The notes beneath the pieces are model-generated. The model was not told where the DNA came from. It saw only the letters and a list, made by a program, of their open reading frames with translations, and ran no database searches. Positions 12,453 to 39,998 of a DNA stretch of 41,545 bases are shown here, piece by piece. Both the position numbers and the translations under genes were made by a program. This stretch comes from Parcubacteria group bacterium (GTDB lineage: Bacteria > Patescibacteriota > Minisyncoccia > Phycocordibacterales > CALRBT01). The stretch spans positions 1-41,545 of the forward strand of contig CALRBT010000010.1 of the NCBI GenBank assembly GCA_943354475.1. The letters run 5' to 3'. The first letter of the stretch is position 1; the number at the start of each line of letters is the position of its first letter.

Positions 12453-12505
12453 AACCCACAACAAAAGCCGGCGACGCCGGCTTTTGTTGTGGGTTTGTGA
12501 TTTTT
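12453..12505 (+). terminator. Very long intrinsic terminator
   Basis: Stem of about 19-20 bp (12454-12472 with 12476-12494), 3-base loop GAC, followed by GTGATTTTTG. It is symmetric enough to work on both strands. The promoter of the next gene overlaps its right arm. Confidence 0.85.
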
Positions 12506-15862: not shown

Positions 15863-17677
15863 ATGGATAAATCAACACAACTAATCCTCTGGTTCGACCA
15901 AGTCAATAATGATGATGTTCAATTTGTTGGAGGTAAGAATGCATCACTCGGTGAAATGTACGTAGCACTTCGTGACCGTGGAGTACGGGTGCCAAATGGA
16001 TTTGTGGTGACCGCCAAAGCGTACCGCGATTTCATCCAAGAGACAGGACTCATGGAGGTCATTAAAGGAGAACTTACAGGACTTGATACTGGGAATATTG
16101 AATTACTCCAAAGTGCGGGGAAAAAAGTTAGACAAGCAATCATCAAAAAAGAATTTACTCCAGCACTTACATCAGCTATTAGACAAGCATATCGAGACTT
16201 ATCAAATTGTTACAAAATGAAAGAAGCTGATGTGGCGGTAAGATCTTCTGCTACAGCAGAAGATCTCCCTGGAGCATCGTTCGCGGGTGAACACGAAACT
16301 TACCTCAACGTTGAAGGTGAAGACGAAGTATTACTCAAGGTTCGTGAAGCAATGGCGTCACTCTTTACTGACCGTGCTATTTCGTATCGGGTAGATAAGG
16401 GGTTTGACCACTTCTCTATTGCTCTCTCTGTTGGTGTACAGAAAATGGCAAGGTCAGATGTTGGCTCCTCTGGAGTGATGTTTACCCTTGATACTGAGAC
16501 TGGATTTCGTGATGTTGTCGTAATCAATGCATCATGGGGCCTCGGCGAGATGGTGGTGCAAGGGAAGGTAACACCCGATGAATTCATGGTGTTTAAACCA
16601 ACACTTCGAGATGGTAAGCGTCCAATCATCAAGAAAAATCTTGGCGAGAAAAAACAAATGATGACGTATACCAAAGGGAGTAGTAAAAGTAATACGGACA
16701 CGCAGGAAGTGGATGTCCCCTATAAAGATCAAATTCGTTATTCATTATCTGATGACGAGGCGCTAACTCTTGCGGGTTGGGGTGTAATTATTGAAGAGCA
16801 TTATACTCGTCGCTTCGGTAAACCAACACCGATGGATATCGAATGGGCAAAGGACGGTAAAAGTGGTGAGCTCTACATAGTCCAAGCCCGCCCCGAGACG
16901 GTACAGAGTGAAAAGAAAGGCCTTTCAATTACTGAATACCTGCTAGGGTCTCACGGAGAGCCATTAACGCACGGTATCACGATCGGTCAAAAGATTGTTA
17001 CTGGTAATGCACGAATCATTCTTGAAACAAAAAATCTCGGAGAATTTAAAGAAGATGAAATTCTCATTACTGAAATTACTGATCCCGATTGGGAGCCAAT
17101 TATGAAAAAGGCAAAAGCAATCATCACGGCCAAAGGTGGGCGTACTTCGCATGCTGCTATTGTCTCACGAGAGCTTGGTATCCCTGCGGTGATTGGTATT
17201 GGTATGGAAGAGCTTAGTAAATTTAAAACAGGAATGCCGATCACGGTTGATTGCTCCTCTGGCTCAGTTGGTTATGTGTACAGCGGGACGCTCACTTGGG
17301 AGGAACGAGTTGAAGACTTGGCTACCATCCCCGAAGTTCACACCAAAATTTCGATGAACATCGGAAGTCCTGAGTCGGCGTTTGCCTACGCACACTTACC
17401 ACATCATGGTGTCGGGCTTGCTCGTGAAGAATTTATTATCGCATCACAGATTGGTATTCATCCAAATGCTCTGCTCGAGTTTGATAAACTTCCAAAAGAA
17501 TTGCAGAAAATCATCGATTTAAAAACACTCGGGTTTGATAATAAAGTTGAATACTACGTTTCAAAATTAGCGGAAGGAATTGCACAGATTGCTTCAGCTT
17601 CGTTCCCGGAGCAAGTAATTGTTCGATTCTCTGATTTTAAGACGAATGAATATAGGACGCTCGTTGGTGGGGAATAG
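15863..17677 (+). pseudogene. ppsA: Phosphoenolpyruvate synthase, 5' part of a broken gene
   Basis: Residues 1-604 of a PEP synthase (pyruvate, water dikinase). The ATP-binding domain (IVRSSATAEDLPGASFAG-like region near residue 125) and the phosphohistidine domain (GGRTSHAAIVSRELGIP, His430) are intact. The protein then enters the PEP/pyruvate barrel and stops at FSDFKTNEYRTLVGGE, where full-length enzymes (about 790 aa) continue. The missing roughly 135 residues would carry the RGASRY arginine and the SNDLTQ region. The end of the gene, with the catalytic Cys, is found separately at 18067-18227 in another frame. The enzyme converts pyruvate and ATP to PEP, AMP and phosphate; this copy is unlikely to work. 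It lies 22 bases after the glycerate kinase gene. Confidence 0.88.
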
Positions 17678-17689
17678 GAAAAATTCAGA

Positions 17690-17718
17690 TTGACAATATC
17701 TAGCATTAATGTTAGTAT
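17690..17718 (+). promoter_or_regulatory. Promoter of the unit inserted in ppsA
   Basis: TTGACA (17690-17695), 17-base spacer, extended -10 TGT-TAGTAT (hexamer 17713-17718). It begins 13 bases after the premature ppsA stop. The same -10 (TAGTAT) is used at 19518. Confidence 0.7.
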
Positions 17719-17724
17719 CGAAAA

Positions 17725-18025
17725 GGATGTTACAGGGAATTAACTATGGATACCCCACTTGAACGTGCCCAAAAAGAGTACTGGAAACTCTATGGTGTTC
17801 TGGAGACATGGCATCGCCAGTTCCCGGCCGCAACGGTGTCCAGAACACCATACGCCCAAAATATCATCTGGGATATGATATTTTGGGGTGAGCTTTGCCA
17901 CATCATTTGTGGCAAGTCACAAGCGGAAACGGCGGAGTTTCTCCGCCAACTCCTAGCCCTCTTGGACGACAGTCCTAGATCTCCCCCCACTCAAACAGGT
18001 TCCTCCGGGAACCTGTTCTTTTTTT
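17725..18025 (+). ncRNA. Candidate hairpin-string RNA inserted in ppsA
   Basis: From the promoter to the terminator the predicted 300-nt transcript is almost a chain of stem-loops: GAGT/ACTC (17776-17790), a perfect 14-bp repeat (17791-17804 with 17839-17852), a perfect 13-bp stem (17855-17867 with 17875-17887), an 8-bp stem (17895-17902 with 17908-17915), a 7-bp stem (17931-17937 with 17941-17947), GGAC/GTCC (17964-17975) and the terminator stem. The 13- and 14-bp matches are far beyond chance for 300 bases. The region also has an SD-led frame (17746-18066), so it may be a structured mRNA, a non-coding RNA, or both. Confidence 0.5.
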
Positions 18026-18066
18026 ACCTCAAATACTTCTTCCCTTTCAATTTTTCCGGCAAATAG
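17746..18066 (+). CDS. Possible 106-aa protein with no stop before its terminator
   Basis: ATG 17746 follows an SD-like AGGGA (8 bases upstream). The first 80 residues look like a small amphipathic helical protein (MDTPLERAQKEYWKLYGVLE, then several Trp, Cys and Leu residues). The frame runs on through the terminator hairpin and its T-tract (17994-18025) and stops only at 18066. The encoded end (NLFFFYLKYFFPF) is simply the translated T-rich tract. If the terminator works, the message has no stop codon. Either the stop was lost, or the frame is accidental within a structured RNA. No family is recognised. Confidence 0.4.
   Translation: MDTPLERAQKEYWKLYGVLETWHRQFPAATVSRTPYAQNIIWDMIFWGELCHIICGKSQAETAEFLRQLLALLDDSPRSPPTQTGSSGNLFFFYLKYFFPFNFSGK
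17994..18025 (+). terminator. Strong intrinsic terminator of the inserted unit
   Basis: 10-bp stem (17994-18003 with 18008-18017), TCCG loop, followed by CTTTTTTT. Confidence 0.9.
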
Positions 18067-18227
18067 CTTTCATCGGTATCTGTGGACAAGCGCCGTCTGA
18101 CTTTAAGGATTTTCTCGAATTCTTAATCAGAGAGGGGATTGATTCTGTTTCCCTCAATCCTGATTCAATTGTGCCAATGCTCTTTACGGTTGCAGAAGTT
18201 GAGAAGGCTATTCAAGAAGGACACTAG
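18067..18227 (+). pseudogene. ppsA: PEP synthase, orphan 3' end
   Basis: A frame without its own start codon encodes AFIGICGQAPSDFKDFLEFL followed by IREGIDSVSLNPDSIVPML and a final helix ending QEGH at the stop 18225-18227. This is the well-conserved end of PEP synthase, including the CGQ catalytic cysteine and the GIDSxSLNPD segment. It is in a different frame from the 5' part (15863-17677) and is separated from it by the inserted promoter/hairpin/terminator unit. About 135 codons of the barrel are missing, so this is a replacement or an insertion with deletion, not a simple split. The enolase promoter lies within and just after this remnant. Confidence 0.85.
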
Positions 18228-31051: not shown

Positions 31052-31062
31052 AGGTTGAAGTA

Positions 31063-31097
31063 TTAACGACCTGGCAACGACGTTGCCAGGTCGTTAA
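31063..31097. terminator. Perfect 16-bp terminator after tgt
   Basis: 16-bp perfect stem (31063-31078 with 31082-31097), 3-base loop GAC, followed by TGCGTTTTAC and later T-runs. Confidence 0.8.
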
Positions 31098-31141
31098 TGC
31101 GTTTTACACCTATTTTACTTTTTGCCTGCCTCACTGCGTAG

Positions 31142-39954: not shown

Positions 39955-39998
39955 AAACCAGTACTATTTGTGATGGTCGTCACAAATAGTACTGGTTT
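39955..39998. terminator. Second, perfect 19-bp hairpin before ddl
   Basis: 19-bp perfect stem (39955-39973 with 39980-39998), 6-base loop, A-rich and T-rich flanks. It can act on both strands and insulates ddl from the unit upstream. Confidence 0.8.

Follow-up and report, generated by a model that had tools for sequence, protein, structure and literature searches.

Inserted into a broken PEP-synthase gene of a Parcubacteria group bacterium is a foreign segment carrying one small gene (positions 17675–18068, forward strand, of the 41,545-nt stretch of DNA analysed here in full and referred to as the window). The 5′ part of the host gene (15863–17677, forward) covers residues 1–604, ending ...TNEYRTLVGGE, and its 3′ remnant (18069–18227, forward; FIGICGQAPSDFKDF...) is 58–60% identical to the C-termini of intact relatives. 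According to tblastn with these relatives, the segment replaces codons ~606–758 of the enzyme gene; ~150 codons of the intact relatives are missing in the window, and the C-terminus resumes from FIGICGQAPSDF after 394 foreign bases. Attached to the small gene is the 3′-end remnant of a foreign rarA (18027–18086, reverse strand), 85% identical to residues 382–401 of RarA from a Nomurabacteria MAG (L014).

The small gene is a forward-strand reading frame that begins at 17746 and, followed as far as the T-tract of an intrinsic terminator at 18025, encodes ~93 residues (MDTPLERAQ...GNLFF), an assignment based on dN/dS and homologues. Formally, the ORF from 17746 has 106 codons and a stop at 18064–18066. 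Located inside the frame is the predicted terminator (17994–18025, forward), composed of a 10-bp stem (17994–18017) capped by a C(UCCG)G tetraloop and a T7 tract extending to 18025. Inspection of the 17746 frame found it open across this element, and reading of the other two frames found no stop inside the terminator either.

Upstream of the frame is a putative sigma-70-type promoter (17690–17718, forward; TTGACA-17-TAGTAT, 10/12 matches). It is the one promoter match found, and is not significant alone because shuffled sequences give 1.4 matches on average; TTGACAATA is retained in both other full-length homologues. Between the −35 and −10 elements lies an operator-like palindrome, ATAnCTAnCATTAATGnTAGnAT (17696–17718, no strand assigned), which is identical in L014 and retains its core, CATTAATG, in the homologue L009. 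A role for this palindrome as a regulon element was rejected, as it occurs in a single copy in the 786-kb genome.

Four homologues of the gene were found, the window copy included, of which three are closely related. The L014 protein is 90% identical over 92 residues, and a further locus, L027, has the same protein in the same surroundings. The protein of L009, a species in the same genus as L027, is 76% identical, and a third species of that genus carries a remote relative (L023, 30%), which was detected with E = 9e-7 by a profile built without it. Within the donor genus, 3 of 35 species have homologues; samples of ~400 genomes drawn from the order and from the class yielded no further credible homologue, and phage, plasmid and viral contigs yielded none. 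Two other profile matches (L025 and L026) were rejected, as the matched positions lie inside unrelated genes, and a third (L024), a 32-residue match in a 37-residue frame, was set aside.

In L014 and L009 the gene occupies its native locus, where msrA lies on one side and a convergent rarA on the other. The rarA that belongs to the host is located on another contig (C11) and is ~70% identical to that of L014. Since the gene lies inside a broken PEP-synthase gene with a foreign rarA scrap attached, it was acquired horizontally, from a relative of L014. The right junction falls within ~12 shared bases, TTTCATCGGTAT, and the junctions look like short shared homologies; DNA uptake followed by recombination at such homologies is a plausible route of transfer. 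A mobile element with its own enzyme was rejected, as the 394-base insert contains only the 17746 ORF and no transposase, and an assembly chimaera is unlikely, both halves of the broken gene flanking the insert in order. Judged from the sequence, recombination would have placed a small gene, complete with its expression signals, within an enzyme gene unrelated to it. The broken copy (15863–17677 and 18069–18227) is the sole PEP-synthase match in the genome at the search threshold, which suggests that PEP-synthase has been lost in this lineage.

The frame is a protein gene under purifying selection, and not a structured RNA that stands by itself. In the comparison of the window with L009, differences at the three codon positions of the 17746 frame number 9/15/40, with dN of 0.154 and dS of 1.133 (dN/dS 0.14), confirming protein-level selection by the dN/dS comparison that the sequence-only reading had proposed. 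No comparable ratio is seen for the remaining forward frames in the same pair, and the reverse frame sharing third positions, which has stops, gives a weaker signal of the kind expected as an echo of this selection. No family of Pfam, NCBIfam or PHROGs matches the product at a meaningful score, PADLOC also returned nothing, and the PDB holds no relative by sequence; DUF6743 was rejected as a family because its match (E 0.04–0.16) is below its cut-off. AlphaFold, run with two sequences, predicts a disordered tail attached to a three-helix bundle, with a mean pLDDT of 76.6, although the five models disagree (47–77). Foldseek searches of PDB and viral libraries gave no significant match to this fold; it weakly and unspecifically resembles helical bundles, among them ribosomal protein bS20, and the predicted bundle is too generic for a function to be named from it. 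The tail is Pro/Ser-rich; its C-terminal 17 residues, SPRSPPTQTGSSGNLFF, include one basic residue, and this tail is without the basic character expected of an mRNA-channel-binding factor.

In all four homologues (window, L014/L027, L009 and L023) no stop codon precedes the terminator and the frame passes through the T-tract, which extends to the relatives what had been claimed for the window alone. L023 has a terminator of different sequence (AGCCCCGC...GCGGGGCTTTTT); like those of the other homologues, it starts one or two codons past a PxxPP motif, which lies directly before the terminator stem and is kept in all four. An open frame is by itself weak evidence here because the stretch antisense to rarA is stop-poor and short spurious ORFs of sister species likewise stay open across it. 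The better-supported ORFs that sister species carry at the homologous locus do stop before their terminators: in six such species, the longest ORF before the terminator ends ahead of the T-tract (223, 214, 187, 138 and 111 residues, and 60 in L070). Across 320 kb sampled from the host genome, 2 of 312 ORFs contain a strong sense terminator, and only the 17746 ORF ends through it. A GGCAAGC...GCTTGCC hairpin followed by TTTTG was also noted near the start of a ybeY-like ORF on host contig C2 (L053 11–120).

The retained PxxPP motif, together with a stop codon that read-through would meet 13 codons past the T-tract, could also point to a conditional terminator. A ribosome that trails RNA polymerase closely and may pause at the conserved Pro-Pro codons before the terminator stem would block folding of the terminator, and the downstream stop (18064) would then be used, making the gene a self-attenuator rather than a case of ribosome rescue. 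We regard this as unlikely: the C-terminal extension past the terminator is not conserved (in L009, 4 nt are deleted and the tail differs; L023 is unrelated there), and nothing useful lies downstream, a region that is antisense to the rarA end in the native locus.

Packed into the frame upstream of the terminator are four hairpins. H1 (17791–17852, forward) has a perfect 14-bp stem (17791–17804/17839–17852), found in the window copy only, that extends to 17 bp with one mismatch. H2 (17855–17887, forward) has a perfect 13-bp stem (17855–17867/17875–17887) and a 7-nt loop, and is followed by H3 (17895–17915, forward; 8-bp stem 17895–17902/17908–17915) and H4 (17931–17947, forward; 7-bp stem 17931–17937/17941–17947); a weaker hairpin lies at ~17958–17980. 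The sequence-only reading had counted seven stem-loops, which are found where it placed them, except that the seventh (17696–17718) is the promoter palindrome, upstream of the likely RNA start.

This string of stem-loops, which had been described as beyond what random sequence would give, is far more stable than both sets of controls. Against dinucleotide shuffles, the MFE of 17700–18040 has a z-score of −6.8; since the region is coding, a stricter null was also used, in which permutations preserve the protein and the codon usage, giving z = −5.3 for the window copy (0/200 permutations reached its stability) and −4.4 once the terminator was left out. At −113.8 kcal/mol it is the lowest among 260 sampled coding segments of 276 nt from the same genome, two others of which have a similar z-score, and 14 segments from neighbouring genes have z-scores from −2.2 to 1.1. 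Five longer inverted repeats (17–26 bp) occur elsewhere in the window, so long inverted repeats alone are not unique there; what is unusual is the density of hairpins inside a reading frame. Long perfect inverted repeats with short loops are found at 12453–12495 (21 bp), 39955–39998 (19 bp) and 31062–31098 (18 bp). A separate hairpin-rich coding segment was observed on host contig C9 (L057 19211–19857; z −5.6 against codon permutations); the second frame that comes after and overlaps it may be a broken peptidase-like gene.

Folding is also strong in the two close relatives, with codon-permutation z-scores of −4.8 for L014 and −3.3 for L009 (−4.7 and −2.1 with the terminator removed), whereas the remote L023 is weakly structured (z ~ −1.7), with little structure beyond its terminator. 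The hairpins differ in how well they are kept. H1 retains 11/14 pairs in L014 and 10/14 in L009, its 14-bp stem being broken in both; H3 retains 8/8 and 5/8, and H4 7/7 and 6/7, respectively. In H2, all 13 pairs are present in the window, L014 and L009; in L009, both bases have been replaced in two of the pairs, and three pairs are G-U. The two double replacements are the only two-sided changes, among only three alignable sequences. The terminator stem is kept at 10/10, and its loop stays UNCG despite an amino-acid change, being C(UUCG)G in L009. When substitution was simulated with the numbers of silent and replacement changes kept, retention exceeded expectation for H2 (13/13, P = 0.017), for the terminator (10/10, P = 0.026) and for all stems together (P = 0.007); with the changed codons held fixed, P was 0.13 for H2 and 0.02 for H4. 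This is modest evidence for selection on folding, with H2 specifically kept and the other hairpins turning over.

A new non-coding structured RNA, one of two options raised by the sequence-only reading, is thus not borne out, as clear retention is limited to H2 and the terminator. An alternative is a structured regulatory RNA overlapping, or also encoding, the small protein; the strong folding in three homologues and the two-sided changes in H2 are what it would lead one to expect. As it matches no Rfam family, loses the 14-bp stem, is barely structured in the remote relative and has substitutions that follow the codon positions, we consider such a dual-function RNA very improbable. The other option, a coding RNA that needs ribosome rescue, is the better supported, by purifying selection and by the stop-less homologues. 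None of the homologues combines a kept protein with lost stems and a stop codon before the terminator, the pattern that the same reading had named as evidence against itself.

The hairpins could have a further origin, in which the gene is a fast-evolving orphan or passenger, its stop lost without penalty since tmRNA cleans up, and its stems are products of palindrome-making mutation at the DNA level rather than of selection on RNA. The patchy distribution described above, the turnover of most stems and a dN/dS of ~0.7 between the window and L014 fit such a history. Between these two copies, differences across 17791–17990 affect several adjacent bases at a time inside stem arms (GAAGAG versus CTAGCC is one case), a pattern that resembles template switching or gene conversion and not changes of one base at a time. 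The antisense strand, moreover, folds more stably in 2 of 3 copies, so folding energy does not decide the strand. Set against this history are the dN/dS of 0.14 across the longer distance, the retention of H2 and the terminator above simulated substitution, and the UNCG loop that persists through an amino-acid change; on balance, we hold the passenger explanation to be rather doubtful.

The reading that we place first, at a little short of even confidence, is a horizontally acquired small-protein gene whose non-stop message is held down by trans-translation, with arfA and brfA as the model for this mode of expression. In the host, contig C4 carries a tmRNA (L032 1501–2020), which was found by Rfam and missed by ARAGORN; its tag, ANVLSKAKSVASPYFTGNTFASTYALA, is readable, ends YALA and is long, at 27 residues, and a long insert lies near the last pseudoknot. 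The small-protein gene would be transcribed from its own promoter, and transcription would end at the intrinsic terminator within the reading frame; as the terminator is inside the frame, the usual message would have no stop codon. Ribosomes would reach the 3′ end of the message and stall, making a message that ends at 18025 a substrate for trans-translation, in which tmRNA would free the stalled ribosomes and direct the ~93-residue product to degradation by tagging it. Accumulation of the protein would require that trans-translation be overloaded. The dense hairpins of the coding region may add restraint by slowing translation, by double-strand cleavage that makes further non-stop ends, or by protecting the 3′ end.

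To our knowledge, genes whose normal message is stop-less by design are few, arfA and brfA among them, and are tied to ribosome rescue. The gene described here has the sequence hallmark of a non-stop-mRNA gene, a strong intrinsic terminator within the frame and no stop before it. Similar to arfA of Escherichia coli, it is short, has a terminator hairpin in its frame and a predicted stop-less message, and resides in a host with tmRNA; it shares with arfA of many genomes the convergent 3′ overlap with a neighbour, here rarA. It differs from arfA in having no sequence match, a predicted three-helix bundle, a Pro/Ser-rich tail in place of a basic one, and many hairpins along the whole frame, where arfA has one near the 3′ end. 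With brfA of Bacillus it shares an intrinsic terminator ahead of the stop codon, giving a predicted non-stop message, but again there is no sequence match, and hairpins besides the terminator run along the frame. In the arfA ORF, the terminator doubles as an RNase III site (PMC10107115), and the 3′ end of arfA often overlaps the neighbouring gene (PMC10070815). In brfA, the terminator is within the coding region, before the stop codon, and the non-stop message is under the control of trans-translation, which keeps its level low (PMC6881298). The resemblance to dual-function and structured RNAs of Rfam is in the strong, partly conserved secondary structure; the gene differs from them in being conserved chiefly as a protein and in having no match at gathering scores, and relaxed thresholds likewise gave only chance-level matches.

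Neither in sequence nor in fold did the protein show a relation to ArfA, ArfT or BrfA. A literature search of limited extent found no report of such a rescue factor in Patescibacteria; a review points out that rescue factors of this kind may escape sequence-similarity searches (PMC8012679). The gene would be a Patescibacteria candidate for expression from a non-stop message. A bolder proposal, that it represents a new Patescibacteria family of tmRNA-controlled non-stop proteins, possibly a rescue or translation-stress factor independent of ArfA, ArfT and BrfA, with the entire coding region folded to restrain expression, is speculative and in our view improbable. A stop-less frame that ends in a terminator and is kept across homologues is a searchable signature.

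The rarA–msrA interval that houses the gene natively is variable across the genus, holding different genes or none in each species. Downstream of rarA in L061–L088 are small genes, structured elements or nothing, varying by species; many of the genes and elements are directed towards rarA and have a terminator right where rarA ends. Shared by three g58 species is an element in this interval starting TTCTGGAAGCYG (L076 1331–1500; L078, minus strand, from 1291; L079 from 1315). The L076 element, which has no Rfam match, resembles a small structured RNA of ~130 nt: it folds into a rod that a perfect 17-bp stem closes, with a terminator-like hairpin after it.
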